Below, piece after piece: positions 1,354 to 18,063 of a stretch of DNA of 64,000 bases. The stretch lies in the NCBI RefSeq assembly GCF_000300335.1, contig NZ_AMRM01000002.1, positions 62,001 to 126,000 of the forward strand, given 5' to 3'. Each line of letters opens with the position of its first letter. The stretch's first letter is position 1. A model generated the notes under the pieces. That model searched no databases. It worked only from the letters and a program-made list of their open reading frames with translations, and was not told the origin of the DNA. This DNA comes from Nitratireductor pacificus pht-3B (GTDB lineage Bacteria > Pseudomonadota > Alphaproteobacteria > Rhizobiales > Rhizobiaceae). The translations under genes were made by a program, and so were the position numbers.

Positions 1354-3156
1354 ATGAGATCCGCCGATTACTGGCCTGCCCTGCGGGCGCCATTGCTTGC
1401 CCTTGCGTTGGGCGTGGCGCCATTCTGGATCTTCATCGGAACCGGCAGCAGCCTGACAGTCAACGGCGAGCTTGTTCGCGAGTCCAATTTCAACATCGCC
1501 GGTGTCGTACTGGGCATCGTCGGCGTTGTCGTCGCGTTTCGCGCCCTGCGCGAAGGTGGAACCTGGATCCGCCTGCTGCTCGGGTGCATCGCGCTGGCAG
1601 TGTCGGGATTCCAGATTGCGTGGTCGGCCGAGTTGCTCACGCGTGATCATGTCAACCGGTTGGTCGGGTATCCGTTGCCGGCAGAGCCTGAGTACAAAGG
1701 GGGCAACCTGGTCAGACAGCACGATATGCGGCTTTTCGCGCACCAGAATGATGAAGCGGAGGTTCGCGAAAGGCTGATCGAAGAGTACGGTTTGGCGCAG
1801 GCCCGGTTTGCCAGCCACAAGCGCTATGCGGAAGCGTGCCATGGCGGAACGATGCGGATCGCAGAAGGTTCAACCGAGCCTCCCGGGTTTGTCGTTCCGG
1901 AGATCAGAGCGAGGATCGACGAACGGGCACAGAAGCTCCTGGCCGAGATGCCCGCCAATGCCTGCAGCCGGGAAAACAGCCTTGTGGAAATGAAGGAACT
2001 GCCGGAGGCCATCCTGCAACAGAGCGATATCCTGGCGGTGCTCGCTTCCGCCTATCGCCGGCGTTTCATTGTGCCACCGGCATCGCAAGCTGCGTTGCCG
2101 TCACTCGACGGCGATCCGATCCTCGCGGAAGCCGAAAAGGGCAATCCGGAGGCGCAGGCCTATCTCGGCGACTATTTCTACAATGGCGGCATCGTTGATC
2201 AGGATTATGAGCAGGCGGCGCGCTGGTATCGTGCCTTGGTGGAAACCGCGGCGGAGAACGCGCAGGATCCCAGTTCGAGGATACGTCTCCAGGGGGCTGG
2301 GGTCGCCCTTGGCTTCATCTATCAGGAAGGGCGCGGCGTTGCCCGCGATGCTGAACAGGCCATCAAGTGGTACATGATGGCCGCGGAGGCGGGCAGCGGC
2401 CGCGGCGCCTACAGGCTGGGGACGCTTTACGAAGAGGGGTTGGGCGTGGCCCCGAATGACCAGCTGGCTGCCGAATGGTATGCGAAGGCGGCGGAGGGCC
2501 TAGAACCGCATGCCGCCTTCAAGCTTGCCACAATGTATCTGGAGGGCCGCGGTGTAGAGCAGAATGAAGAGCGCGCCGGCGCGTTGTTCATCACCTCCGC
2601 CGAGAATGGCGATTCAAGCATTGCCACATGGCTTCTCGAACCGGCTATGGCAGGCAATGCCGATGCGCAGTTCGCGCTTGCTTCCATCCTCTACAGCAAC
2701 AGGGCGGGTGTTCAGGACCGGGCCAAGGCGGTCGGATGGTTCCGCAAGGCCGCGGAACAGGGCCATGCCGCCGCGCAATACAAGATCGGTGAACTTTATG
2801 CATACGGCCGCGCCGTGGGGAAGGATCCGGAGCGTGCGGCCGAGTGGATACGCAAGGCGGCAGAACAGGGCCATCCGGCTGCACAGGTTCATCTGGGAGT
2901 GATGCTCCAGAACGGCGAAGGGGTGCCGAAGGACGAGAAGCTGGCGTTCGAGTGGCAGAGCAAGGCAGCAGCCCAAGATGACAGGCAGGGCGCGTTCAAT
3001 CTCGGCATTCTCTACGCAAATGGTATCGGCGTTGAGCTGGATTTCGGCAAGGCGGAGGAATGGCTGCGCAAGGCGCAAGCGCTCGGGCATACCTCGGCCG
3101 ACAAGATGCTGCGCGAGCTCGAAGAGCTGAAACGCAAGAATGCCGACACCCTTTGA
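1354..3156 (+). CDS. Sel1-repeat (TPR-like) membrane-anchored protein
   Basis: 600 residues. The N-terminus carries about three hydrophobic segments (roughly residues 10-30, 47-64 and 72-90). From about residue 255 to 590 there is a run of Sel1-like repeats with the usual spacing of A-x-x-x-L-G-x-x-Y/Y-x-x-G-x-G-V and A-x-x-W-Y/F-x-K-A-A-E-x-G, for example LGFIYQEGRGV, LGTLYEEGLGV and IGELYAYGRAV. Sel1 repeats fold into alpha-alpha superhelices that scaffold protein complexes, and in bacteria they often sit in signalling or envelope-stress proteins. The partner is unknown. The gene overlaps the next one by 17 bases, so the two are probably translationally coupled. Confidence 0.85.
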   Translation: MRSADYWPALRAPLLALALGVAPFWIFIGTGSSLTVNGELVRESNFNIAGVVLGIVGVVVAFRALREGGTWIRLLLGCIALAVSGFQIAWSAELLTRDHVNRLVGYPLPAEPEYKGGNLVRQHDMRLFAHQNDEAEVRERLIEEYGLAQARFASHKRYAEACHGGTMRIAEGSTEPPGFVVPEIRARIDERAQKLLAEMPANACSRENSLVEMKELPEAILQQSDILAVLASAYRRRFIVPPASQAALPSLDGDPILAEAEKGNPEAQAYLGDYFYNGGIVDQDYEQAARWYRALVETAAENAQDPSSRIRLQGAGVALGFIYQEGRGVARDAEQAIKWYMMAAEAGSGRGAYRLGTLYEEGLGVAPNDQLAAEWYAKAAEGLEPHAAFKLATMYLEGRGVEQNEERAGALFITSAENGDSSIATWLLEPAMAGNADAQFALASILYSNRAGVQDRAKAVGWFRKAAEQGHAAAQYKIGELYAYGRAVGKDPERAAEWIRKAAEQGHPAAQVHLGVMLQNGEGVPKDEKLAFEWQSKAAAQDDRQGAFNLGILYANGIGVELDFGKAEEWLRKAQALGHTSADKMLRELEELKRKNADTL

Positions 3157-3727
3157 AACGCTGAAGCAAGGGGCGACGATTGTCTGGGTTTCCCTGGCTC
3201 CGGCGATGGTGCTGTGCATCGTTGCGCTGTGGCTGAACGGGAAGGCCAACGATCTCGCACCGGGGTTTTCCCTTGAGGATGTCCGGATTGTCGAGGGCAA
3301 GGTCAAGGAGTTTCGTCAGGCGAAGCGGCCGGCCCGCAAACCCCGGCGCAGGATCGTGTCCGGCATCAGCGTCCCGGTCACGGTGCGCTTCGTCTATCTG
3401 CAGCGGTTTCCGGAGACGGAGTTTCATCTGTCTGTCGAAAATTACCCGGCGCCGATACCCGTGGATTCGAATGTGCGCTTCGAAGTCCTGAACTGGCCGG
3501 TCAATGAAAAGCCCGTTTATCGAAGCTATGCGGTCGCGGGACTGGCGATCAATGGTCAAACCTATTTCACGGCGGAGCAAGCTTGGACGGCCTCCCGCAA
3601 GCGGGAGCGTCACCAGCGCGGATATGCGCTGGCTGTGGGCGGGCTTGCGCTCTTCTGGGTCGCTTTCGTTCTGCGCTGGCGACGTGAAATCATCCGCGAG
3701 ACCATCGACGCCATACGCCATTTGTGA
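3140..3727 (+). CDS. Small membrane protein, unknown function
   Basis: 195 residues with one hydrophobic segment near the start (about 12-32) and one near the end (about 163-183). Between them is a basic, beta-rich stretch of about 130 residues. This architecture, two helices flanking an extracytoplasmic domain, resembles DUF3592-type proteins, but I cannot assign the family securely. The ATG lies inside the end of the Sel1-repeat gene (17-base overlap), so the two products may work together in the envelope. It converges with the minus-strand cluster, whose last gene ends 6 bases away, leaving no room for a separate terminator. Confidence 0.7.
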   Translation: MPTPFETLKQGATIVWVSLAPAMVLCIVALWLNGKANDLAPGFSLEDVRIVEGKVKEFRQAKRPARKPRRRIVSGISVPVTVRFVYLQRFPETEFHLSVENYPAPIPVDSNVRFEVLNWPVNEKPVYRSYAVAGLAINGQTYFTAEQAWTASRKRERHQRGYALAVGGLALFWVAFVLRWRREIIRETIDAIRHL

Positions 3728-3733
3728 CCCTCT

Positions 3734-4810
3734 CTATTCGCCAGCTGGCCTCGCAATATGCCCGGCGCGAATGTCATAGATCACGGCACGGTCCGACCGG
3801 GTCAGGCGATCGGACAGGGTTCGGTCGATGATGATCCGGGACGATGGCGCGACGAGGGGGTTCATGAAAACCCGTTCGCAGAAGACCGCATTCGCTGCCG
3901 CAACTGCCAGCACTCCGTTCCAGCAGGATCTGTAGGCTGCCTCGTTGCAATAGGAACCGAAATCGGAAAGCGAAAAGGCATCCGCCTCGCCGAGGCCGAG
4001 GCTCGGAAGATCGGTGAGACCGCCGTCGACCACCTGCAGCCTCGGTAGCGCCTTCCTGATGCGGGAAAAATTGTCCGGCAGCAGATGCAGGGGCAGGGCT
4101 GACGGCAGAGAGACGCATCCGCGCAGGATCAGTGAAACGAAGTCGCTTTCCCGGAAAAAGAAGCTCCCTGAAGCGCGATTGAAGGCAGACGCAAGCCGCC
4201 TCTCGACCTCCCTTGATTCAGGGAGGAACGCCCCACCCGGTTCGCCGATGATACGGGTCCAGATCCAGGGCCGGCCAAGCAGACGTATTGCGCCGCGCCA
4301 TATCCGGTCGTCGAAGCAGTCGCGCCATGTGGCTGCCTGCTCGTCCAGACTTGTGGATGCGAAAAGCGCATCTATGGCCTTTCCGCGGATCGCGCGTGCC
4401 CCCAAAGCCCCGCAACGAAGCACCTTTTCCCAGCGGCCCGCATACCAGATGCCGTGCCTGATGAGGCGTTGCCGGCGGGTCCAGAAGGCGTCGGTTGCCG
4501 GGGGAAGAATGGAGCGCAGCCGTGCATGCAGTGCCAGCCGGTCATGACAGGGCAGGATGCCAAGATAAGCCAACAGTTCCGTATGATCGAGGGTCTGGAT
4601 TGCCGCGATCTTCAGGCGCAGGAGCTCGTTCTGCACGGGGTTGATATCGATGGCGATTACCTGCTTGGCGTCCGACAGCAGCATGTCCAGCGGGCGGGTG
4701 CCGCTGCCAGTCAGGCAGACAAGCCGCCGGCGCGGACCTGCGAGCGCGGCAAGCTCGCTTCTTGCATCTTCGTTCGATGAGGTGAAGTTGAGGCTGCTGA
4801 AGAATTCCAC
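3734..4810 (-). CDS. BtaA-like SAM 3-amino-3-carboxypropyl transferase (DUF3419)
   Basis: 358 residues. Residues 30-70 carry the hallmark of the BtaA/DUF3419 family: a glycine motif LTGSG (33-37), then AIDINPVQN (about 53-61) and a LxLKIAA helix. BtaA transfers the 3-amino-3-carboxypropyl group of S-adenosylmethionine onto the hydroxyl of diacylglycerol, the first step of betaine-lipid (DGTS) synthesis. A later FSLSDF segment matches the family's SLSD motif. No BtaB N-methyltransferase is adjacent. Instead it is the last gene of a five-gene operon encoding a ketoacyl synthase, a reductase, a hydrolase and an adenylating enzyme, so its acceptor is probably not an ordinary diacylglycerol. The family is confident; the substrate is unknown. 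Confidence 0.85.
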   Translation of the reverse strand: MEFFSSLNFTSSNEDARSELAALAGPRRRLVCLTGSGTRPLDMLLSDAKQVIAIDINPVQNELLRLKIAAIQTLDHTELLAYLGILPCHDRLALHARLRSILPPATDAFWTRRQRLIRHGIWYAGRWEKVLRCGALGARAIRGKAIDALFASTSLDEQAATWRDCFDDRIWRGAIRLLGRPWIWTRIIGEPGGAFLPESREVERRLASAFNRASGSFFFRESDFVSLILRGCVSLPSALPLHLLPDNFSRIRKALPRLQVVDGGLTDLPSLGLGEADAFSLSDFGSYCNEAAYRSCWNGVLAVAAANAVFCERVFMNPLVAPSSRIIIDRTLSDRLTRSDRAVIYDIRAGHIARPAGE

Positions 4811-4813
4811 CGT

Positions 4814-6079
4814 CTACTCTCCGTGGCGGAACCGGTTTTCGACACGACGCAGCTTTGGACCGGTACGATAGGTCATCGGATCGCGCAGCAATTCGAGCCG
4901 CGGAGAAACGCCGAGCCGCGCAAACTGGTCTTGCAAGGCTTTCAGGGCGGCGTTTGCCGAGGCGTCTTGCAAGGTAGGATGGAGGGTCAGGGACACCGTT
5001 CCGTCCACCTTGCGACAGATACGGAAATCCGTGATGTCACGCGCGGCATCGAGCACGGCGTTGCGCATCACGTCGGGCGTGACGAGCACTCTGGTTGCAC
5101 CGGGCCGCGTGAAGAAAAAGCCGTCGTCCACCCGCCCGACGATCTCGTCCACCGCCTGCAGGGGCGATCCGCAAGGGCAGGGGCGTTCGGAGAGGCGAAG
5201 AAGATCGTTCATGCGATAGCGCGCCAGAATCTGGAAGGAACGACGGAACGAGGTCACCATTGGCGAAACAAGCCCATCGCCCACGGGCTCGAATTCGAAG
5301 TGATTGGCATCTTCCGCCAGATGCAGACGGCCATGGCGGCAGGTGACTGCGAAGAGTCCTTCGCTTGCCATGTAGATCTGGCCAAGGGGAATGCCGAAGC
5401 GCTGCTCGACAATGTGCCGGTCGACCGGGTCCAGCGTTTCACCGCCGGCATAGAGCCGGCGTGGAGCAAGGTTGCCCGCGGTTTCGGCCAGCAGGCGCAA
5501 CACCTGTGGCGGCGCCACGATCGTTGTGGGGTTGAAGGCCTGTAACGCACCGAGCCATGCCCCTGGATCCTGCCGCAGGTCATGGAAAGAGAGCTGAAGG
5601 CCAGGCATGCGATTGGCGCCGTCATAGAGCGCGGAAGGCTGCGGCAGAAGGACGGCCACGCGCTCGGGCCGAACGAGGAAAGCCGGAATTGTCTTCGCAA
5701 GGATGCTGCCCAACCAGCGGAACCGCTCGGGTGGGGTGACTGCATAGAGTGTGCGATTGCCGCTCGTGCCGGTGCTGGCCCCGATACTGATGCCATCAAT
5801 CTCTCCGCCTGAAGCAAAGGCTTCCCATCCGGCTTCGGCCGTGATGCGGGCGCGATTGAACTCCTCGAAACACGCCATCACGGTGGTCTTGTCGATCACC
5901 GGCAGGCTCCGGAGATGCGGTTCGGCGTCCTTGTAGAACCCGACCCCGGGCAGATCGTCTCGCAGCCAGCGCTGCAACGCACGCTCCTGCCAGTCCTTGA
6001 AATCTGCCGCTGAACGCCCCGGGCGGCAGACCCACAGCGTCTGAAAGAATGCATGGGCGGCGTGCAGGCGGGCGCTCAT
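4814..6079 (-). CDS. Adenylate-forming enzyme, F390-synthetase/PaaK-like
   Basis: 421 residues from the ATG that overlaps the preceding stop as ATGA (6076-6079); the upstream open frame is antisense read-through. It shows the core motifs of the ANL superfamily: P-loop STGTSG (102-107), GGE (212-214), Y-x-x-S-E (236-240, MASEG) and Y-R-M-N-D (288-292), replacing the usual YxTGD. CPCG (301-304) matches the zinc-type cysteines of phenylacetate-CoA ligases and coenzyme F390 synthetases. It should activate a carboxylate as acyl-AMP for transfer to an unknown nucleophile. No carrier protein or extra domain is fused. It ends 3 bases before the BtaA-like gene. No F420 biosynthesis gene is in view, so F390 formation is unlikely. 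Confidence 0.8.
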   Translation of the reverse strand: MSARLHAAHAFFQTLWVCRPGRSAADFKDWQERALQRWLRDDLPGVGFYKDAEPHLRSLPVIDKTTVMACFEEFNRARITAEAGWEAFASGGEIDGISIGASTGTSGNRTLYAVTPPERFRWLGSILAKTIPAFLVRPERVAVLLPQPSALYDGANRMPGLQLSFHDLRQDPGAWLGALQAFNPTTIVAPPQVLRLLAETAGNLAPRRLYAGGETLDPVDRHIVEQRFGIPLGQIYMASEGLFAVTCRHGRLHLAEDANHFEFEPVGDGLVSPMVTSFRRSFQILARYRMNDLLRLSERPCPCGSPLQAVDEIVGRVDDGFFFTRPGATRVLVTPDVMRNAVLDAARDITDFRICRKVDGTVSLTLHPTLQDASANAALKALQDQFARLGVSPRLELLRDPMTYRTGPKLRRVENRFRHGE

Positions 6080-6897
6080 GCCGAAGGCTCCCGGAGATCG
6101 AAGGGGGCCGGATCGGGATCGTGGCATAGCATCACATGCCCGCCCGCGTCGCGAAATGCTGTCAGAAGCCGTGCGCTGTGCGCCAGCTGGCCGGGCTTCT
6201 CCGCCACCAGGCTTGCGGGAAAACCGGGCACCCGCTGCTCGAACGCGGCGCGCAGCAGCCATTGCGCATCCACGGCGTAGAGAAGCGGCGTGGGGAGCTT
6301 TGGAAAGCACAGCCCGAAATGGCCATCTGCGTGGCCGGGCAGGTCGATCGCCAGGAGACTTCCGTCGCCAAGAAGGTCACGCCCCTCGTCGAGGGGCGGG
6401 CCGGCGTGCACCACAGGGCGAGCCTGAACATCGATCAGTCTGCCGGCGAGGTCGGGCGGCAGCAATTCAGTGAAAATTCCGTGTCGGAGATTGCGCGCCG
6501 GGGAACACGCCCGGATCCTCTCGAAGACATCCCGTCTGGCCAGAACACGTGCCTTCGGGAAGCGGCACAGCGTGGCCACGTGGTCCGCGTGGAAGTGGCT
6601 AAGCACGATGAGGCGCACGTCTTCCGTTCGGAACCCGAGGCGATGAAGCACGCGCTCCGGCGCGCTGTCCGGAACCATCTCGGCCCGAAGAACGGCTGCG
6701 TAGCCGCGCAAGGCAAGACTGCGCTTTCCTGCGCTTATTTCCGGACCGTAGCCGGTGTCGATAAGCACAGGGCCTTCGACAGGGTGTACAAAAATGCCGT
6801 AGCGCACCGCCAGACGACAGGGCGCCCATCGTCCGCGGCGCAGCACCAGGCGCTCTGGAACTGTAATCCAGGCGCTGTTCGCAAAGACCGGGTTCAT
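6076..6897 (-). CDS. Metallo-beta-lactamase-fold hydrolase
   Basis: 273 residues from the ATG that overlaps the stop of the epimerase gene (ATGA, 6894-6897). The zinc motif H-x-H-x-D-H is intact (SHFHADH, H101, H103, D105, H106). It is followed by a downstream PGHADGH segment and a C-terminal MLCHDPD, which together supply a two-metal site. The short VLIDTGYG strand near residue 45 is typical of the fold. Sequence shape is closest to the lactonase/glyoxalase-II-like branch, which includes N-acyl-homoserine lactonases; the real substrate is unknown. In this operon it could act as a thioesterase, lactonase or editing hydrolase on the acyl product. No signal peptide. Confidence 0.82.
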   Translation of the reverse strand: MNPVFANSAWITVPERLVLRRGRWAPCRLAVRYGIFVHPVEGPVLIDTGYGPEISAGKRSLALRGYAAVLRAEMVPDSAPERVLHRLGFRTEDVRLIVLSHFHADHVATLCRFPKARVLARRDVFERIRACSPARNLRHGIFTELLPPDLAGRLIDVQARPVVHAGPPLDEGRDLLGDGSLLAIDLPGHADGHFGLCFPKLPTPLLYAVDAQWLLRAAFEQRVPGFPASLVAEKPGQLAHSARLLTAFRDAGGHVMLCHDPDPAPFDLREPSA

Positions 6898-7880
6898 CGT
6901 TCGGCCAATTCCGCAAACGTGCGGGAAAGGCCTTCTTCGAAGGTCACTGCCGGCCGCCAGTCGAGCATTCGCCTGGCTTTGCCGATATCGAGGCTCTGAC
7001 GATAGGCGAAGAGCCCGAGCGCATAGGGCGTAAGGCGCGGTTCCCTGGCATTCGGGCGGCGCGATTGCACCGCATCGGCAAGCCGCGCCACAACCATGAG
7101 GGGGCGGAGCGGCATCGTTCGCCAACGCACCGGCTCGCCGGCTGCGGCGCAGGCGCTCTCGACGATCCGCCTGACTGAGACGATCTCTCCGCCGGAGACA
7201 TTGAAGGTCTGTCCCGTCACTTCGGGACCGGCCAGAAGTGCGGCCTCGATCGCGCGCACCACGTCCGACACATGGGTGAGATCGATGGCCGCCTGTCCGC
7301 CGCGCAGCAGGGGGAGAGGTCCACGCCGGGCGGCTTCCAGAAGGCGCGGCAGCAACGCCGTATCGCCGCGGCCGTAGATCCCGCGCGGACGCAGGTTGAC
7401 CGGGCCGAATTCCGTACAGGCCAGCACACGTTTCTCGGCGATGGATTTGGTTTCGGCATAGTGATTGATCGGGGGCGGGAGCGGATGGTCCTCGCTGACG
7501 GCCAGTTGATCGCGCGGGGCGAAGTAGACGGCTGGGGAGGAGATATTGACGAAGCGCCGGACGTGGAGCGCGCGCGCGAGCTTCAATGCCGCCTCGGTGC
7601 CGGTCACATTGGCTCTCAGGAAGTGTTGTCGTGCGCCCCACGGGGCTGAAAGGGCCGCGCAATGCACCAGGGCATCGGCTCTCCCCATGGTGTCGACGAG
7701 GCTGCCCGCTTCCTCGCTCCCGAGATCGACGCGCCATGCGGGGATGCCGCGGCTTTCAAGCATGGCAAGCTTCTCAGGGGAGCGGCCGAGCGCCAGGATT
7801 TCATGCCCGGCGGCCGAGAGATACTGCGCTGCCTGTCCACCCAGGAAACCCGTGGCGCCAGTGATCACGATCCGCGCCAT
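6894..7880 (-). CDS. NAD(P)-dependent epimerase/dehydratase (extended SDR)
   Basis: 328 residues. The start MARIVITGATGFLGG gives the Rossmann GxxGxxG motif at residues 8-14. The catalytic pair is Y141-x-x-x-K145 (YAETK), with serines at NISS (113-115). The family is the extended SDR group (3-beta-hydroxysteroid dehydrogenase or NAD-dependent epimerase type), which reduces or oxidises hydroxyl groups on acyl chains, sterols or sugars. It starts 2 bases after the ketoacyl synthase stop and overlaps the next gene by ATGA, so it is tightly coupled. In context it could reduce the beta-ketoacyl product of the synthase, as in OleD-like chemistry, but that is inference. Confidence 0.82.
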   Translation of the reverse strand: MARIVITGATGFLGGQAAQYLSAAGHEILALGRSPEKLAMLESRGIPAWRVDLGSEEAGSLVDTMGRADALVHCAALSAPWGARQHFLRANVTGTEAALKLARALHVRRFVNISSPAVYFAPRDQLAVSEDHPLPPPINHYAETKSIAEKRVLACTEFGPVNLRPRGIYGRGDTALLPRLLEAARRGPLPLLRGGQAAIDLTHVSDVVRAIEAALLAGPEVTGQTFNVSGGEIVSVRRIVESACAAAGEPVRWRTMPLRPLMVVARLADAVQSRRPNAREPRLTPYALGLFAYRQSLDIGKARRMLDWRPAVTFEEGLSRTFAELAER

Positions 7881-7882
7881 GA

Positions 7883-8884
7883 TCAGATCTCCACCGCCAG
7901 ACCGCCGAAGGAAACACCCGCTGACGTTCCGACAAACAGGACCCGGCTTCCCTGCGCGATCCTGCCGGCACGCCAGGCGATGTCGAGTGCGGTCGGTATC
8001 GATGCGGCGATCTGGTTGCCATGCGTTGCGACGATATCGACGACGCGGGAGGCGGTGAAGCCGACATGTTCCACCATGTGTCGCAGCGCGAGCGGGCTTG
8101 CCTGGTGCGGCACCACAAGGTCCACGTCCTCTACGCCCCAGCCTGCTGCAGCGAGAAGCTCCTGCACAAAGGCTGGGAAGTGTTTGCGCGTCACGCGGAA
8201 GAGCGCTTTCCCATCCATCTGGAAGTAGGCGTGTTTCGCGAACTCCGCCGGCGCCGCATGGAAATCGATGCGGGTCCCACCGGCGCCGATCCGGCATGCC
8301 TCGTAGGCGGCCGGATAGCTGCGCATCAGGTTCGCGCAGATCCCCGAGCGGGCAGCGTTTGCCCGCGTCAGCACCGCAGCTGCTGCTCCATCGCCGAACA
8401 GGGCTGCGACCTCCGGCTGGTCTTTCCAGGGCAGGGCGCGTGAGGCGATTTCGGAGGAAAAGATGAGCGCCGTGCGGATCTGCCCCGAGGCGATCTTTCC
8501 CGCGGCGAGATCAAAGGCTGTCAGGAAGCTGAGACATGTGGAGTTGACGTCGTGGCCCGAGGCCCGGCCTTCCGGAACTCCAAGCTTCTGCATCACGAGC
8601 GGCGCCGTCGAAGGGATCAGCTGATAGGGTACGGCGCATGCTCCCAGGACGAGGTCCAGGTCCTCGACGCAAACGCCGCTGGCAGAAATCGCCTCGCGGG
8701 ATGCTGCGAGGGCCAGATCGATCTGGTCTTCGCCATCGCAGACGAAACGGCTGCGAACGCCGGTAGCCGCCTCGAGATGTCCGCGGGGGAAGCCAAGTTG
8801 CTGGTCCCAGGTTTCGGAAGACAGCGAGCGCCGTGGAAGCGCGTGTCCGGTTCCGGCAATTCGCACCGGAGTAAAAAAAATCAT
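7883..8884 (-). CDS. 3-oxoacyl-ACP synthase III-like ketosynthase
   Basis: 333 residues from the ATG at 8884; a TTG 15 bases upstream is an alternative start. The FabH-type triad is complete: C117 (DVNSTCLSFL), H260 (VVPHQAS) and N290 (THGNQIAAS). The C-terminal GTSAGVSFGGLA is the usual glycine-rich end. KAS III enzymes perform decarboxylative Claisen condensation between an acyl thioester and malonyl-ACP, or head-to-head condensation or acyl transfer in the OleA/PqsD-like branches. This is the first gene of the five-gene minus-strand operon. No acyl carrier protein or dehydratase accompanies it, so it is a specialised ketosynthase rather than housekeeping FabH, which normally sits with plsX. 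Confidence 0.87.
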   Translation of the reverse strand: MIFFTPVRIAGTGHALPRRSLSSETWDQQLGFPRGHLEAATGVRSRFVCDGEDQIDLALAASREAISASGVCVEDLDLVLGACAVPYQLIPSTAPLVMQKLGVPEGRASGHDVNSTCLSFLTAFDLAAGKIASGQIRTALIFSSEIASRALPWKDQPEVAALFGDGAAAAVLTRANAARSGICANLMRSYPAAYEACRIGAGGTRIDFHAAPAEFAKHAYFQMDGKALFRVTRKHFPAFVQELLAAAGWGVEDVDLVVPHQASPLALRHMVEHVGFTASRVVDIVATHGNQIAASIPTALDIAWRAGRIAQGSRVLFVGTSAGVSFGGLAVEI

Positions 8885-9380
8885 GGGTACGACCGTCAAA
8901 TGGCGCCGTTGCTGCCTCGCAAGACAACCAGGAGAAACGAAGTTGCAGCAGGCCGGCCCGCAGGCCGAATCGTTGCCGACGATGAGGCGATCCTCACTTT
9001 ATCATCAGAGGGAGGTATGACAGCCGCGTCAACTTGTACAGATGCCCTACTCTCGATGTATCGATTGTATTTGTCCCGATTTTTCCTAGTGTCCGCCACG
9101 ATATGACAGATGCGGATACTGGGGTGATAGATGGCGTGGACGCCGAGCCATTTGAGGATTGCAGGCGAGCTCGTTTCTATTGCCTGTTCTCATGTGCGTG
9201 TCCAGGCGCGTGAGTTTTCATCCTGCAAGGCCTGCATCGCCCTTCTTGAACGGCATCCCCTGCGGGATGTCGTGCTGGCGATAGAAAGGGCAAGCGCACG
9301 GGTGAGGGCTGTCTGCGCTACGAGGCAACCCATTGCGTTCTTCCGGGCCGCACCGCCGGTGATCGCCGATAGGGGTTTGG
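8885..9380. other. Intergenic region between divergent units
   Basis: About 500 bases with no convincing gene. It must hold the promoter of the minus-strand ketosynthase operon and any promoter for the plus-strand gene that follows. A T-run on the minus strand (the A-run at 8873-8880 just inside the ketosynthase start) and an AT-rich patch around 9050-9090 are visible. A 29-codon frame at 9017 follows GAGGGAGG with a spacing of only one base, so I do not call it. I found no hairpin worth reporting. Confidence 0.4.
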
Positions 9381-10358
9381 ATGGCCGGTTTCTTTGAGAG
9401 CCTTGCGAGGTTCCTTGGCGCCATGACAGGACCAGCCCGAAGAGGCGCTTCGCCGGACGGCGCGAAGGCGCGTGCGACGCCTCGGGCCCTGCAGGAGGTC
9501 TTCGAATATTCGGTCCGCTTCAACATCGTCGGCAAAGGGTTTTCCAGACTTGGTGGAGAGCCGGGTCCCGCGGAGAGAATAACTTTTTCGCCCCGTCCCC
9601 GCCGGATCGATTTCCGCCAGGCGCACGGCCCCTATCGGCGTGATGAGATCGTCGATGTGCCGGCCTATCTGCAATGGTCGGCTTATCCGGTCTTCGCTTT
9701 CCTCGCGCTTATCGACGAGGAGCTCGAATATCGCTTCGGCACCAATGGCGAAGCCACGCACTGGCTTTGTCCCATCACGGCCGATCCGGAACGGATCGCG
9801 CAGATCGATCGGATGTTCCTGCTCTGGTACGAGCATCTCGGTCTGCCGGAATCGCTGGACCCGCCACCCAGTCCGGCGCGCGACATAGACCGGTCCGACA
9901 AGATGGGACTGATCCGCCACTACCTGCGCGTCGGGGATCAAGCATTCCTGTTCAAGGTTCTGGGGGACGATCACGATGATGTCGTGATGTGGGTCGATTG
10001 GCGGGAAGCCGACGACGACATCGTACATATGTGCGAAAAGCTGATCCGGACAGGCGACCTCACGGCGGAGTTCGTGCCGAACGACGTCTCCGCCGATCTG
10101 TTCATCGCCCATCGCGGCGTGCGCACGCGCGTTCCCTATAACGGCCCGGACGCGGATCGCGATACCACGCTTGTCACCTTGAATGCCATTCTGGCGCCGG
10201 ATCATGAAATCCGGATGTGCCGTGAGAGCGGTCACGGCGACACCGTGGCTTTTCTGCCGCTGAGTGCGGGGCAATGGCAAAGCCTGGAAGAGGCCATGCC
10301 GCTGGAAGTGAAGGAGAAATTCATGAAGCTCTCAAAGGACAGCGCGATCTTCTCGTAA
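9381..10358 (+). CDS. Hypothetical cytoplasmic protein
   Basis: 325 residues with no signal peptide and no membrane helix. The sequence is acidic and aromatic-rich in the middle (VPAYLQWSAYPVFAFLALID, FLLWYEHLGL) with a DDHDD stretch near residue 195. Composition and the absence of in-frame stops over nearly 1 kb support a real gene. I recognise no family. It is followed 50 bases later by another unknown gene on the same strand, with a GTGAGGA ribosome site between them, so both may be co-transcribed. Confidence 0.65.
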   Translation: MAGFFESLARFLGAMTGPARRGASPDGAKARATPRALQEVFEYSVRFNIVGKGFSRLGGEPGPAERITFSPRPRRIDFRQAHGPYRRDEIVDVPAYLQWSAYPVFAFLALIDEELEYRFGTNGEATHWLCPITADPERIAQIDRMFLLWYEHLGLPESLDPPPSPARDIDRSDKMGLIRHYLRVGDQAFLFKVLGDDHDDVVMWVDWREADDDIVHMCEKLIRTGDLTAEFVPNDVSADLFIAHRGVRTRVPYNGPDADRDTTLVTLNAILAPDHEIRMCRESGHGDTVAFLPLSAGQWQSLEEAMPLEVKEKFMKLSKDSAIFS

Positions 10359-13137: not shown

Positions 13138-14298
13138 TTAGCTTCGACCGTATTCGAGCGTCCGCATCACACCGCGCAGTTCGGCCAGCCCTTTCAGTCT
13201 GCCGATCCCCGAATAGCCCGGATTCACACGCTTGCCGAGGTCATCCAGAATGGCATGCCCGTGATCGGGGCGCATGGGGATCTGTCCGCCGCGCCGCCTC
13301 TCTTCATCAAGCAGGGCGGCGACCACGGCTATCATGTCGGTGTCGCCTTCCAGATGCTCTGCCTCATGGAACGACCCGCAAGGTTCTCTCTTCACGTTGC
13401 GCAGATGCGCGAAGTGAATATGAGGCCCGAGCGCTTTCGCCATGACAGGGAGATCGTTTGCCGGGTTCGCGCCGAGCGAACCCGTGCAGAAGGTCAGGCC
13501 GTTTGCCTCGGACGGTACGGCGTCGAGCAGTGCTTTCAGGTCGTCATGCGTTGATACGATGCGCGGCAGGCCGAACAGGGGGAAAGGGGGATCGTCGGGG
13601 TGGATTGCCATGACCACGCCTTCCTCCTCCGCGACCGGCATGATCTCCTGGTGGAATGCTGCCAGATTTTCACGCAGGCCATCGGCCGAGATGTCGCGAT
13701 AGGTATCCAGCATGCGCCGGAAGCTTTCGCGGTCGTAGACGAATTCACGCGCCGGGACCCATTCTATGAGATTGCGCTCGAGACGCGCCAGATCGCTCTC
13801 GCTCATCGTTTTCAGGCGTTCGCGGGCGACCTCCACCCGATCGGCCGGGTGGTCCGCTTCTGCGCCCGGACGCGCAAGGATGAAGACATCGTGGACGCAG
13901 AACTCAATTGCATCGAAACGCAGCGCCGTGCCGCCATGGGGCATCGGATAGTCAAGATCCGTGCGCGTCCAGTCGGTGATGGCCATGAAGTTGTAGCAGA
14001 TGGTACGCACCCCGGCGCGGGCGACATTGCGGATCGAGGTCTTGTAATTGTCGATCAGGGTGCGGAAATCGCCGCTGCGCGTTTTGACATGCTCATGCAC
14101 GATGACGCTTTCGACGACCGACCATTCAAGGCCGGCCTGTTCGATTTCGTGCCTGCGCTTGTCGATCTCGTCCTGCGGCCAGGCGCGGCCGTCATTGAGA
14201 TGATGCAGGGCGGTGACGATGCCTGTCGCACCCGCCTGCCGCACATGGGCGAGCGTCACCGGATCGTCCGGACCGAACCAACGCCAGGTCTGCTTCAT
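13138..14298 (-). CDS. uxuA: Mannonate dehydratase
   Basis: 386 residues, close to the usual length of about 394. It dehydrates D-mannonate to 2-keto-3-deoxy-D-gluconate in hexuronate breakdown. Family landmarks are the start MKQTWRWFGPDDPV, the barrel strand MAIHPDDPPFPLFGLPRIV, metal-side HIHFAHLRNVKRE and the end motif RPDHGHAILDDL. The ATG is preceded by CCGAGGAGAATG, a strong ribosome site. It is the last gene of the long LacI-linked minus-strand operon and follows uxuB closely (the uxuB stop is 4 bases downstream of the uxuA start). Uronate isomerase (uxuC) and KDG kinase are not in the window. Confidence 0.93.
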   Translation of the reverse strand: MKQTWRWFGPDDPVTLAHVRQAGATGIVTALHHLNDGRAWPQDEIDKRRHEIEQAGLEWSVVESVIVHEHVKTRSGDFRTLIDNYKTSIRNVARAGVRTICYNFMAITDWTRTDLDYPMPHGGTALRFDAIEFCVHDVFILARPGAEADHPADRVEVARERLKTMSESDLARLERNLIEWVPAREFVYDRESFRRMLDTYRDISADGLRENLAAFHQEIMPVAEEEGVVMAIHPDDPPFPLFGLPRIVSTHDDLKALLDAVPSEANGLTFCTGSLGANPANDLPVMAKALGPHIHFAHLRNVKREPCGSFHEAEHLEGDTDMIAVVAALLDEERRRGGQIPMRPDHGHAILDDLGKRVNPGYSGIGRLKGLAELRGVMRTLEYGRS

Positions 14299-14302
14299 CG
14301 TG

Positions 14303-15754
14303 TCATTCTCCTCGGGCGTAGTGGGCCAGTGCCCCGGCGACACCATCGGTCTCCATGCGCTGGCAGTCTTCGATGACGGCGGGCAGATATCGGTCGATCC
14401 CGTCGAAGCGGCAGGCTTCGAGGACGGCGGCGACAGTGTCGGCGGGGCTCGTTGTTCTCGCGATGGCTGCTTTCAGCGTCTCATCCAGCGGGTCGGTGAA
14501 GGCGGGCGGATCGCCTCTGCTGGCGAGCGCGGCAATCCAGAGCGCGACACCGGCCGCGAGATGCGGTGCGCTTCCACCTGAATCCAGCCGTTCCAGCAGC
14601 GGGTTGATGAAGCGCTGCGGCAGTTTCTGGGAACCGTCATTGGCAATCTGCGCCGTGCGATGGCGCAGCGCCGGATTGGCGAAACGGTCTGCAAGCCGCG
14701 CGGTGTATTCGTCGGGCATCAGGCCCGCCTCGCCGGAGAGCGTCCGGGCGGATTCCCGCCACAGACCCTTCACGAAACCATGGATAAGGGGATCGGCAAA
14801 AGCATCCGCCACGGTCTCGCGCCCGAGCAGCTGCCCTGCATAGGCGAGGGCTGAATGCGCGCCGTTCAAAAGCCGGAGCTTCATCTCTTCGAACGGGGCG
14901 ACGTCGGCAACCATCTCGACGCCATGGCGCTCCCAGGCGGGCCTGCCCATCGGGAAATCGTCTTCCACGACCCATTGCATGAAGGGCTCGGTCACGACCG
15001 GCCAGGCGTCCTGGGCGCCAAGCGCCGCGGCGACACGTTCGCGGTCGGCATCCGTGGTCGCCGGAACGATGCGGTCCACCATGCTCGACGGGAAGGCGAC
15101 ATTCTGCTCGATGTGCTGAGCCAGTTCAGGATCGCGCAGGGCCGCAAATTCGATCACGAGGCGGCGCAGGGTTTCTCCATTCGACGGAAGGTTGTCGCAG
15201 GAAAGGACGGTGAAGGGCGGCGTGCCCTCAGCCTGTCGCTGGGCGAGCGCTTCCGTCAGAAAGCCCAGAGTGCCCGTTGGTCGTTCAGGATTTGCGAGAT
15301 CCGCCGCAACTCTCCGGTCCTGCGTGTCGAGGCCGCCATCCGGCCCTCGCGGATAGGCCTTCTCGGTCACGGTCAGCGTCACGATGCGCGTCTGCGGATC
15401 GCTCAACGCTGCCAGAACAGCCTGCGGATCCTCCGGTGCGACCAGCACCTTCATCACGGAACCGATCACTTTCAGCGTTTCGCCGGTGCCGTCTCTCTCG
15501 GCGAGTGCGTAGAGCCAGTCCTGCGGGGCCAGCGCATCGCGCATGGCCGGACTGCGGAGGGAGACACCGATGATGCCCCAAGCCATGTCCCCCTCCGCAA
15601 GACAGGCATCTACATAGGCCGCCTGATGGGCGCGATGAAACGCGCCGACGCCGATATGCACGATGCCCGCGCGCAAACCCGCTGGATCGTATCCCGGACG
15701 ACCGACGGTTTCGGGCAGTTGTGAAAGGCAGGTGCGATTGAGACGCTGCGCCAT
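14303..15754 (-). CDS. uxuB: Fructuronate reductase / mannitol dehydrogenase family
   Basis: 483 residues from the ATG at 15754; the GTG just before it is an alternative. It is a member of the long-chain mannitol dehydrogenase family: an N-terminal nucleotide-binding part with HIGVGAFHRAHQA and a C-terminal catalytic part with K-L-R-L-L-N-G-A-H (catalytic Lys, Asn, His). D-fructuronate reductase makes D-mannonate with NADH, the substrate of the following uxuA gene, which is the main reason to prefer fructuronate over mannitol. It lies 6 bases after the transporter ATPase stop, so import and catabolism are co-expressed. Confidence 0.9.
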   Translation of the reverse strand: MAQRLNRTCLSQLPETVGRPGYDPAGLRAGIVHIGVGAFHRAHQAAYVDACLAEGDMAWGIIGVSLRSPAMRDALAPQDWLYALAERDGTGETLKVIGSVMKVLVAPEDPQAVLAALSDPQTRIVTLTVTEKAYPRGPDGGLDTQDRRVAADLANPERPTGTLGFLTEALAQRQAEGTPPFTVLSCDNLPSNGETLRRLVIEFAALRDPELAQHIEQNVAFPSSMVDRIVPATTDADRERVAAALGAQDAWPVVTEPFMQWVVEDDFPMGRPAWERHGVEMVADVAPFEEMKLRLLNGAHSALAYAGQLLGRETVADAFADPLIHGFVKGLWRESARTLSGEAGLMPDEYTARLADRFANPALRHRTAQIANDGSQKLPQRFINPLLERLDSGGSAPHLAAGVALWIAALASRGDPPAFTDPLDETLKAAIARTTSPADTVAAVLEACRFDGIDRYLPAVIEDCQRMETDGVAGALAHYARGE

Positions 15755-15760
15755 CACGGT

Positions 15761-16822
15761 CTAGCCGAGCCTCTGGCTCGTCTCTGCATCGAAGAGATGC
15801 GCCTTGTCTGCCTTGACGCCAAGGCGCACGGCGTCGCCGGCGCGTATGTTGACGCGGTCGCGAAGCAGCGCTGAAACGATCTGCTCCCCCATGCGAACCT
15901 GCACGAGGGTTTCGGAGCCTGTCGGCTCGACATTGGTCGCGACGGCCTCGAAGCCTTTGCCATCATCGGCCAGGTGCAGATGTTCCGGCCGGATGCCATA
16001 GACGACCTTGCCGACTGCCGGCGGCGCGCCTTCGAACGGAAGTTCGGCTCCGTTTTCGGCGCGAACGCTCCTTCCGCCATCTGCAATGAAGCCCGGCAGA
16101 AGATTCATCGAGGGGGAGCCGATGAAGCTTGCCACGAAGGTGTTGTTCGGGCGGTCGTAGAGGTCCAGCGGCGCGCCGACCTGCTCCACGAGGCCGTCGC
16201 GCATGACGACGATGCGGTCGGCCATGGTCATGGCTTCGATCTGGTCGTGCGTGACATAGACGGTGGTGGTCTTCAGCCGGGCATGAATGTCCTTGAGTTC
16301 GGCGCGCATCTGCACGCGCAGTTTGGCGTCCAGATTGGAAAGCGGTTCGTCGAACAGGAAGACCTGCGGATTGCGCACGATGGCACGCCCCATGGCGACG
16401 CGCTGGCGCTGGCCGCCGGAGAGCTGGCGCGGATAGCGTTCGAGATAGTCCGACAAACCGAGAATGCCGGCGGCTTCGCGCACGCGCTGGTCGATCTCGT
16501 CTTTCGGGCGTTTGGCGAGCCTGAGCGAAAAGCCCATGTTCTCGGCAATCGTCATGTGCGGATAAAGCGCATAGTTCTGGAACACCATCGCGATGTCGCG
16601 GTGCTTGGGCTCCACATCATTGATGACGCGTCCGCCGATGCTGATGGTGCCGCCGGAAATGTCCTCAAGCCCGGCAATCATGCGCAGCAGGGTGGACTTC
16701 CCGCAGCCGGACGGTCCGACCAGAACCACGAAGGCACCGTCCGGCACGTCGACCGTTACGCCCTTGATGGTTTCGAGCTGTCCGTAGAATTTGCGGACAT
16801 CCTGGATATCGACTGAAGCCAT
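15761..16822 (-). CDS. Carbohydrate ABC importer ATPase (UgpC/MsmK-like)
   Basis: 353 residues. Walker A is GPSGCGKST (36-44), the Q-loop sits in MVFQNYALYPHM, the signature is LSGGQRQR, Walker B is FLFDEPLSNLDAKL and the switch His is in YVTHDQIEAM. A C-terminal TOBE/OB-fold region (GIRPEHLH) is characteristic of CUT1 sugar importers. It should energise the permease pair encoded upstream in the same operon. It starts 2 bases after the AGE-epimerase stop. An unrelated open frame extends further upstream in this phase but lies inside the previous gene, so MASVDIQDVR is the real start. Confidence 0.94.
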   Translation of the reverse strand: MASVDIQDVRKFYGQLETIKGVTVDVPDGAFVVLVGPSGCGKSTLLRMIAGLEDISGGTISIGGRVINDVEPKHRDIAMVFQNYALYPHMTIAENMGFSLRLAKRPKDEIDQRVREAAGILGLSDYLERYPRQLSGGQRQRVAMGRAIVRNPQVFLFDEPLSNLDAKLRVQMRAELKDIHARLKTTTVYVTHDQIEAMTMADRIVVMRDGLVEQVGAPLDLYDRPNNTFVASFIGSPSMNLLPGFIADGGRSVRAENGAELPFEGAPPAVGKVVYGIRPEHLHLADDGKGFEAVATNVEPTGSETLVQVRMGEQIVSALLRDRVNIRAGDAVRLGVKADKAHLFDAETSQRLG

Positions 16823-16824
16823 GG

Positions 16825-18063
16825 TTACCTCGAGGCGTAAGCGGGATGTGACGTTGAAAGAGCCTCCGCAACGCGGATTGCGGCAAGAAGGCTCAAACCG
16901 GTGTGATATCCGGGGTCGAGATCGGGCGTGGCGGGCACATAGTCGGTGGGGCCCTCCGCCGTGCGGGTCTGGTAGGCAATGGCCGGCGCACCGCGCCAGT
17001 AATGGTCGAAGAATGCGCTGTCCGCCTGTTGCCAGATGGCGAGGCTGTCGGCGCTGCCGGTCAGCTGGTGGCAGAGCGCGGCAGTGCGGATCGTTTCCGG
17101 CAGCGACCACCAGGGCCGGTAAGGGCTGAGTTTTTCGCCGGAAGAAACCGAGACGGTCAGATGCAGCCCGCATTCGGCAAAGCTCGCCCGGAAGGAGGCG
17201 ATCAAAATTCGCTCAAGCGTGGCAACCAGCGCCGGGTTTTTTCGAACGGGCGCGTGGTCCAGCGCAAAGCCTGCAAACTCGATGCCGTGCCCGACATTGC
17301 AGTCATCGCCGCCCGGCACATTGCGCAGCAATCCGGTTTTCTCGTCCAGATGGTTCTCGATGACATGATCGATGAAACGCTGCGCATAGGCGGTGTGGTC
17401 TGAAAGGCCACAGTGTTCCAGCATGCCGGCGGCGCCGAGCAGGATCATGCGCGGCCCGAAATCGGCTGGCTCACCGGCAAGCGCCTCGCCACCCAGCGGC
17501 TTTTCCTCACCCATCTGGAAGCGGCCATCCTCGATTGCCGCAATCACATCGGCGAGGTAGCGCAGATGTTGAGGCAGTTCTTCGGGGGCATAGCGCGAAG
17601 CCGCAGCCACCAGCCCCTTGGCGGTGAATGCGTCGGAATAGGTGAACACGTCTCCCGCTGGTTCCTGAGCGGTCACCGCGCCATCGCCCACAGCGCGAAC
17701 AGGCCGAAGCTCGCCATCATAGCGGAAATAGACATGTCCATCGCGCGAATGCAGCTCTTTGATGCGCGCGAAGAGGGAACGCCCGGCCTCATCGAGCCGC
17801 TGAGACAGTGCCGCGTCACGGGTCTCGAAAAACACCTCATGGCTCACAAGCGCTTCGAGCCCACGCCCCTGGATCCAGCCATAGATGTAGTCGGGGCCGC
17901 GCAGCCCGTCGGCCTCGCCATAATCGGCAAGCGTCAGGCTGTTCACCTTGGTGTTGAGGAAGCCCGCCCCGAGCAGAGGGCGATCCAGCATCCACCGGAG
18001 CGTGCCGGCATTTGCCGATGCATAGCGGTCGGCTGCTTCCCGGAAGAAGGCATTTGCGCTCAT
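16825..18063 (-). CDS. AGE-superfamily sugar epimerase/isomerase
   Basis: 412 residues, the normal length for N-acylglucosamine 2-epimerase family proteins, with an (alpha/alpha)6 barrel. Family signatures visible are CNVGHGIEFAGFAL (the GHxxE pair used in catalysis), PWWSLPETIRTAAL and a late YHTGLSLL histidine. These enzymes move the C2 configuration of N-acetylglucosamine/mannosamine, cellobiose or glucose/mannose, or isomerise aldose and ketose. Here the gene overlaps the permease by ATGA (18060-18063) inside an amino-sugar/uronate operon. The substrate could be free GlcNAc/ManNAc or a disaccharide with a reducing amino sugar. An unsaturated-glycosyl-hydrolase fold is a less likely reading. 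Confidence 0.8.
   Translation of the reverse strand: MSANAFFREAADRYASANAGTLRWMLDRPLLGAGFLNTKVNSLTLADYGEADGLRGPDYIYGWIQGRGLEALVSHEVFFETRDAALSQRLDEAGRSLFARIKELHSRDGHVYFRYDGELRPVRAVGDGAVTAQEPAGDVFTYSDAFTAKGLVAAASRYAPEELPQHLRYLADVIAAIEDGRFQMGEEKPLGGEALAGEPADFGPRMILLGAAGMLEHCGLSDHTAYAQRFIDHVIENHLDEKTGLLRNVPGGDDCNVGHGIEFAGFALDHAPVRKNPALVATLERILIASFRASFAECGLHLTVSVSSGEKLSPYRPWWSLPETIRTAALCHQLTGSADSLAIWQQADSAFFDHYWRGAPAIAYQTRTAEGPTDYVPATPDLDPGYHTGLSLLAAIRVAEALSTSHPAYASR

Follow-up and report, generated by a model that had tools for sequence, protein, structure and literature searches.

A conserved four-gene core with exchangeable partner genes in a putative biosynthetic operon of Nitratireductor pacificus

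Do five tightly packed genes in Nitratireductor pacificus pht-3B encode one fixed pathway, or a common core to which different bacteria attach different finishing enzymes? The genes lie in a stretch of 64,000 nucleotides of contig NZ_AMRM01000002.1 (positions 62,001 to 126,000; hereafter the window). They encode a ketosynthase (KAS), an extended short-chain dehydrogenase/reductase (SDR), a metallo-beta-lactamase-fold (MBL) hydrolase, an adenylating enzyme (ADE) and a BtaA-like protein (Table 1). The original prediction, made from the sequence of the window, took all five as one set. We find that the operon is conserved, and that its fixed unit is the first four genes only. The BtaA-like gene accompanies this core in 14 of 103 loci and belongs to a group of at least five partners, no two of which occur together in any sampled locus.

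Relatives were collected via the adenylating enzyme from 18 of 56 matching plasmid records, from the best 80 of 583 confirmed genome-contig hits and from stretches of genomes of the window's family. With profiles made from seed loci we obtained 110 loci with an adenylating enzyme after duplicate removal, 103 of which hold all four core genes. Dropped before counting were a second copy of the window (L023), loci from places already covered (L164, L168, L170, L172, L174, L177, L178, L179) and a weaker PaaK-like match (L183); L111, where gene calling missed the ADE frame at the end of the contig, is uncounted. The seven ADE loci without a full core are contig ends (L043, L051, L056, L074, L107) or have the core partly missing (L027, L029). 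A core is absent from L021 and L033.

The four core genes are contiguous and on one strand, in the order KAS-SDR-MBL-ADE, in 92 of the 103 full-core loci. In two (L019, L024), KAS and SDR are separated by an ATP-grasp gene. The other nine are rearranged: in seven of them ADE faces the rest of the core, and the last two are L032 and L094. The window's five-gene order was found in seven loci including the window itself, in four more with a GNAT-like gene and in two more with a Rieske gene, that is, in 12 further loci; a 13th, L105, is rearranged. Three of the seven (L085, L088, L090) carry a Rieske/VanA_C-like gene, scoring below threshold, between ADE and the BtaA-like gene. The five-gene set extends to other genera, with ADE identities of about 41-60%, and this recurrence suggests more than chance. 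The earlier view of a single operon of biosynthetic type, conserved beyond this strain, is thereby supported.

The genes that accompany the core fall into distinct classes. An ATP-grasp gene was found in 64 of the full-core loci, a BtaA-like gene in 14, a glycosyltransferase gene in 8, PAP2 plus sterol-desaturase-like genes in 6 and a sulfotransferase gene in 4, with none of these in 7. Exactly one of the five classes is present in 96/103 loci, and two classes occur together in 0/103. When the five partner columns were shuffled independently, two-class loci averaged 19, and the lowest count in 20,000 tries was 10. The BtaA-like and ATP-grasp classes were fixed before the count, and no locus (0/103) has both (Fisher p = 2.2e-7, uncorrected for kinship, which inflates significance). 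The glycosyltransferase and sulfotransferase classes emerged only from inspection of the loci that lack both.

A quick tree of the adenylating enzyme requires at least 19 changes of partner class overall, against 36-38 in label shuffles (five of thirty), and at least 8 between the BtaA-like and ATP-grasp classes. The window's own branch of eight adenylating enzymes holds BtaA-like (the window, L035), ATP-grasp (L012-L014, L034), sulfotransferase (L037) and partnerless (L039) loci. Hyphomonas has both BtaA-like and glycosyltransferase forms, and Ruegeria both sulfotransferase and ATP-grasp forms. The BtaA-like gene ends 1,063-1,125 nucleotides past the ADE stop in 10 of 14 loci, making it the next gene after ADE, and the glycosyltransferase gene is the next gene after ADE in all 8 of its loci. 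In two genomes (G000, G035) we found neither a GNAT-like nor an ATP-grasp partner elsewhere in the genome (0/2), although an empty result without a positive control carries no weight.

From these sequences we propose a modular operon, in which the core would make a hydroxylated acyl scaffold and the partner would add a polar group; we give this proposal an even chance of being right. The ketosynthase would join two acyl thioesters in the manner of CorB and MxnB, giving a beta-keto product that the OleD-like reductase would turn into a beta-hydroxy compound. The MBL enzyme would cleave a thioester or lactone to release the free acid, and the adenylating enzyme would reactivate the carboxylate for transfer to coenzyme A (CoA), an alcohol or an amine. 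In the last step, the partner would decorate the scaffold. Glycosyltransferases, sulfotransferases and BtaA commonly modify hydroxyls; since three of the partner families do so and the reductase would supply a hydroxyl, this is the most likely site for the polar group. In the window, the BtaA-like partner would add a 3-amino-3-carboxypropyl group from S-adenosylmethionine (SAM), giving a homoserine-ether-like head group. The acylated homoserine-ether-like product of the original prediction is compatible with this scheme, although unproven. Relatives would instead attach a sugar or a sulfate to a scaffold of this kind, ligate it with an ATP-grasp enzyme, or process it with PAP2 and sterol-desaturase-like enzymes. 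A helpful precedent is found in passages of PMC7064751, where the glycosyltransferase of an OleA cluster is interpreted as decorating an alcohol.

The core enzymes keep the catalytic residues expected of their families at the positions examined. Every motif named by the original prediction was found: Cys117, His260 and Asn290 in the ketosynthase, YxxxK in the SDR, HFHADH with further H, D and H in the MBL hydrolase, STGTSG in the adenylating enzyme and DINPVQN in the BtaA-like protein. Across the 103 full-core loci the ketosynthases all retain Cys, His and Asn, the triad that OleA also requires, and the reductases all retain the Tyr and Lys of YxxxK. All seven metal-ligand residues of the hydrolase, comprising HxHxDH and the further ligands, are likewise present in 103/103. 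In STGTSG, five of six positions are invariant in 103/103 (Ser, Gly, Thr, Ser, Gly) and the second is Thr in 93 and Ser in 10; a Glu, an Asp, an Arg and a C-terminal Lys of the adenylating enzyme are kept in all 103.

As families, hmmscan, for which four of the five proteins were entered as longer mechanical frames with the upstream extension included, gave ACP_syn_III, Epimerase, Lactamase_B, TIGR02304 (F390 synthetase-related) and DUF3419. None of the five window proteins reaches the cut-off of the NCBIfam models listed for it, so they are relatives of the named families and not proven members. For the ketosynthase, the top NCBIfam model is PRK07204, which scores 284.9 bits for the window protein and 303.6 bits for CorB, both below the cut-off of 402; the two proteins share their top four models, with PRK07204 first. 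The predicted structure (pLDDT 92.7) has CorB (4yuc) and MxnB (4v2p) as top PDB matches, at Foldseek template modelling (TM) scores of 0.89-0.92 and 30-32% identity. The first chain named OleA stands at rank 38 among the structural matches.

One alternative is an Ole-type pathway, in which an OleA-like condensation and an OleD-like reduction would be followed by closure of a beta-lactone by the adenylating enzyme, and this lactone would be the substrate of the MBL enzyme. The two best NCBIfam models of the reductase are both OleD (NF042422, 175.7 bits against a cut-off of 580), and the E. coli relative of the reductase is also nearest to OleD models. Passages of PMC7064751 describe how OleA, OleC and OleD turn acyl-CoA into beta-lactones, as well as a cluster of OleA, glycosyltransferase, OleC, P450 and OleD. 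Our core resembles OleABCD and OleACD, the olefin and beta-lactone systems, in pairing a condensation-type enzyme with an OleD-like reductase and an AMP-forming enzyme. However, OleA E117 and PpyS E105 serve as a base acting across the dimer, as set out in a section of PMC4578411, and at this site the core ketosynthases carry Ile (62/103) or Leu (41/103), the site having been placed through a CorB alignment and the text of that paper with OleA itself unaligned. The same section gives Val at this position in MxnB and CorB and places both in the FabH clade. Furthermore, the matches listed for the adenylating enzyme, families and PDB entries alike, are of PaaK/F390 type with no OleC among them, the core has an MBL enzyme and no OleB-type hydrolase, and a polar-group gene is exchanged. 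We therefore regard an Ole-type pathway as unlikely. Membership in OleABCD itself we reject on the glutamate site and the model cut-offs.

The ketosynthase is best described as a FabH-like KAS III enzyme without the OleA/PpyS glutamate, as in CorB and MxnB, a feature that FabH shares. The enzyme could instead elongate a chain with malonyl-ACP, the MBL enzyme releasing a 3-hydroxy fatty acid that the adenylating enzyme would load onto a head group. The Cys-His-Asn triad is that of FabH too, and it is FabH that comes first in the ketosynthase sequence search, ahead of MxnB and CorB in second and third place; FabH chains also score nearly equal to CorB and MxnB against the predicted structure. 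Against this fatty-acid variant, the best structural matches are CorB and MxnB, and the ranking of NCBIfam models equals that of CorB, both weak discriminators. We doubt that the variant is correct. In the corallopyronin and myxopyronin systems, the interconnecting ketosynthases CorB and MxnB convert polyketide synthase (PKS)-bound beta-ketoacyl chains into alpha-pyrones, and MxnB condenses two beta-ketoacyl chains according to passages of PMC5724707; here the scan of neighbouring frames recognised neither a PKS nor a carrier protein, and the next gene encodes an OleD-like reductase.

The closeness of FabH, in sequence and in structure, is equally the first of several points that weigh against the modular pathway we propose. 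The partner is often not the sole tailoring gene: the ATP-grasp loci carry a GNAT-like gene in 61/64 and a Rieske gene in 53/64, and the BtaA-like loci carry a GNAT-like, Rieske or weaker Rieske-like gene in 10/14, with none in the window, L035, L068 and L106. Seven of the 103 loci have no listed partner; in two of these (L077, L181) a nearby glycosyltransferase-like frame was seen by eye (33 bits with the glycosyltransferase profile in L077), and none was noticed in the other five. An ATP-grasp ligase has no obvious action on a hydroxyl, and the GNAT-like and Rieske genes also fit less directly. The exclusivity of the five classes is partly post hoc, although that of BtaA-like and ATP-grasp genes is not. 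Sequence distances of the BtaA-like protein follow those of the core (r 0.83-0.90, against 0.91-0.96 for core versus core), making it a long-standing member where present and tempering the notion of a swap. Finally, the sample is skewed to near relatives (the best 80 of 583 hits and 18 of 56 plasmid records).

A third alternative is a small diffusible signal of the PQS or pyrone type made by a ketosynthase, an MBL thioesterase and a CoA-ligase-like enzyme. PqsD, PqsE and PqsA are the same three enzyme types (ketosynthase, MBL hydrolase and CoA-ligase-type enzyme) in one operon, and PqsD and PqsC are among the solved relatives of our ketosynthase. The hydrolase is a Lactamase_B protein (PF00753) whose best NCBIfam model is the AttM lactonase (67.8 bits against a cut-off of 390; AiiA, 37.7 against 375), and its nearest solved relatives are acyl-homoserine lactone lactonases and 4-pyridoxolactonase. 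Helix-turn-helix regulators lie a few kilobases from the L012 and L013 cassettes. In contrast to the alkylquinolone system PqsA-PqsE, the cassettes add a conserved OleD-like reductase and polar-group genes, and no anthranilate genes were recognised in the scanned frames. The partners include PAP2, fatty-acid-hydroxylase and fatty-acid-desaturase families, which points to lipids, and no LuxR-type receptor was recognised among the few recurrent neighbours scanned. Scanning representatives in that screen identified a minority of the clusters, as an ABC transporter ATPase, TetR regulators, a short-chain dehydrogenase and a VTT-domain protein. A signal of this type appears rather improbable. The adenylating enzyme has phenylacetate-CoA ligases and PaaK-like ligases as solved relatives. 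Its closest NCBIfam family is TIGR02304, F390 synthetase-related (222.2 bits against a cut-off of 251.9), and annotated relatives in like cassettes bear that name.

The BtaA-like protein belongs to DUF3419 (PF11899, 129.3 bits, above the cut-off of 28.2). Its SAM-binding motif is largely preserved: among the 14 operon members, one Gly, the two Asp and the Gln are present in 14/14, the other Gly in 11 (Ala in 3) and the Asn in 12 (Ser in 2). The predicted structure (pLDDT 89.8) has two PDB matches at E <= 0.001, with a best TM score of 0.39/0.45, and most of the 50 structural matches listed are SAM methyltransferases, which makes a SAM-binding fold plausible. A profile search for a solved relative found none (best E 0.26). 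In a quick tree, run with long-branch warnings, the operon proteins form one clade of 14 (SH-aLRT 100), apart from the canonical sequences, which include the genome's own BtaA. A class-wide search with the operon BtaA-like profile matched 38 of 385 genomes, with 620 bits for the window's own genome, 111.1 for the next best and no further operon-type members. Of six plasmid matches, four lie beside an adenylating-enzyme match and two (L021, L033) lie outside a core.

The family membership and the mostly conserved SAM-binding positions would also suit an offshoot of betaine-lipid synthesis, with the BtaA-like enzyme acting on diacylglycerol and the other genes supplying special acyl chains. We reject this as the main explanation and consider it very unlikely, because a canonical BtaA (379.3 bits) lies elsewhere in the genome, and after it comes a frame that was read by eye as BtaB from its methyltransferase motif (L001, C1:69688-73821), and because the operon members form their own clade; moreover, no BtaB adjoins them, and 89/103 loci have the core without a BtaA-like gene. 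This separate canonical BtaA beside a BtaB-like frame, along with the OleD-like reductase and the CorB/MxnB-like ketosynthase, had not featured in the original prediction.

Two further observations concern DUF3419 genes. The rearranged L105 cluster holds two of them (7965-9059 and 4518-5585); one of them is diverged, falls outside the clade of 14 and follows MBL, where L097, L100 and L109 hold ATP-grasp, its copy in L177 scoring 160.4 bits. On a Deefgea plasmid (L033, 5992-7074), a distant DUF3419 gene is flanked on one side by a gene for an iron-containing redox enzyme and on the other by speD, encoding adenosylmethionine decarboxylase, and may relate to another small SAM-derived product.

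In keeping with the earlier statement that no named pathway has this exact gene set, full-text literature searches, limited to open papers, found no description of the cassette, although other wording is possible. Full-text searches for 'F390 synthetase-related', 'CoF synthetase' and TIGR02304 found no paper on these; an F390 synthetase is mentioned in PMC5501837 and PMC2702500. On DUF3419, titles and opening lines of abstracts pointed to no paper on a bacterial gene cluster. The review PMC10491745 counts BtaA among known SAM aminocarboxypropyl transferases, with no such cassette in the passages concerned. Acyl-condensing biosynthetic operons are an already known kind; the new point is the layout of a core plus an exchangeable partner. 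More tentatively, these loci could be unnamed, widespread lipid cassettes in which a common hydroxylated scaffold receives its polar head (aminocarboxypropyl, sugar, sulfate, ligated or phosphate-linked) through a single exchangeable gene, yielding undescribed membrane or secreted lipids, including in part of E. coli. If the modular pathway is correct, one four-enzyme core would predict undescribed decorated acyl molecules across Alphaproteobacteria, with relatives beyond, and the head group could be predicted from sequence via the partner. It would also suggest roles, open to testing, for 'F390 synthetase-related' proteins and for DUF3419 proteins other than ordinary BtaA.

Table 1. Genes of the operon, with positions in the window.
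Gene	Position	Strand	Length and basis
KAS III-type ketosynthase (core gene 1)	7883-8884	minus	333 amino acids; Pfam/NCBIfam scan
Extended SDR, OleD-like 3-oxoacyl reductase (core gene 2)	6894-7880	minus	328 amino acids; NCBIfam scan
MBL-fold hydrolase (core gene 3)	6076-6897	minus	273 amino acids; PF00753
PaaK/F390-synthetase-like adenylating enzyme, ADE (core gene 4)	4814-6079	minus	421 amino acids; TIGR02304
BtaA-like DUF3419 protein, putative SAM:3-amino-3-carboxypropyl transferase (exchangeable fifth gene)	3734-4810	minus	358 amino acids, GTG start; PF11899

The five genes form one real operon, a single transcript being read from their spacing. Open frames and lengths were verified for all five, and the predicted junctions agree: a gap of 2 nucleotides (7881-7882), two ATGA overlaps (6894-6897 and 6076-6079) and a gap of 3 nucleotides (4811-4813). 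As had been predicted, the frames scanned within 109-24590 of the window revealed no carrier protein, methyltransferase or exporter beside the operon. A MalK-type ABC-transporter ATPase lies at 15761-17173. The frames flanking the operon (3140-3727 and 9381-10358, mechanical picks on the other strand) have no Pfam match, and the window contains no RNA features or tRNAs. The GC content of the operon is 0.643 against 0.624 for the window. A plasmid-borne operon was rejected given this GC content and a RepA family search of the draft genome, which had zero matches over the cut-off.

Within the window's genus and family the distribution of the operon is sporadic. None of nine same-genus genomes matches the adenylating enzyme, four of them matching the profile weakly (45-49 bits). 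In the family, the ADE profile finds a match in 133 of 297 sampled genomes, with at least 450 bits in only 21, the window's own included; the remaining matches score at most 163 bits and mostly resemble ordinary PaaK paralogues. Further afield, relatives of the four core genes occur in 672 of 5,426 complete E. coli genomes, in other Proteobacteria, in Bacillota (L019, L024) and in Fusobacterium (L032). In the E. coli KE48 record (L017, 5131-12012), the stretch between narI and purU holds a core relative and, after it, genes for PAP2, sterol-desaturase-like and acyl-CoA desaturase proteins. On two Pseudomonas megaplasmids (L027, L029), ADE lies near an ATP-grasp gene, with no ketosynthase within the stretch examined.

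Some database labels call for caution. The L017 and L032 'plasmid' records look chromosomal, the former being 385,579 bp of E. coli with narGHJI and galU and the latter 2,108,235 bp of Fusobacterium vincentii. The plasmid of L012 carries the label 'Roseateles sp. XES5' (Betaproteobacteria) but coincides with G633 of the window's rhizobial family, and its NCBI name is probably wrong. The metagenome-assembled genomes of L066 and L090, named Flavobacteriaceae and Candidatus Sulfopaludibacter, have cassettes nested among alphaproteobacterial ones and are probably contaminated bins. Elsewhere in the window, a Sel1-repeat protein with eight repeats is encoded at 1354-3156, adjoining a frame without a Pfam match (109-1317), and the D-mannonate dehydratase, mannitol-dehydrogenase-family and ABC ATPase genes at 13138-17173 are likely a locus for sugar-acid use.

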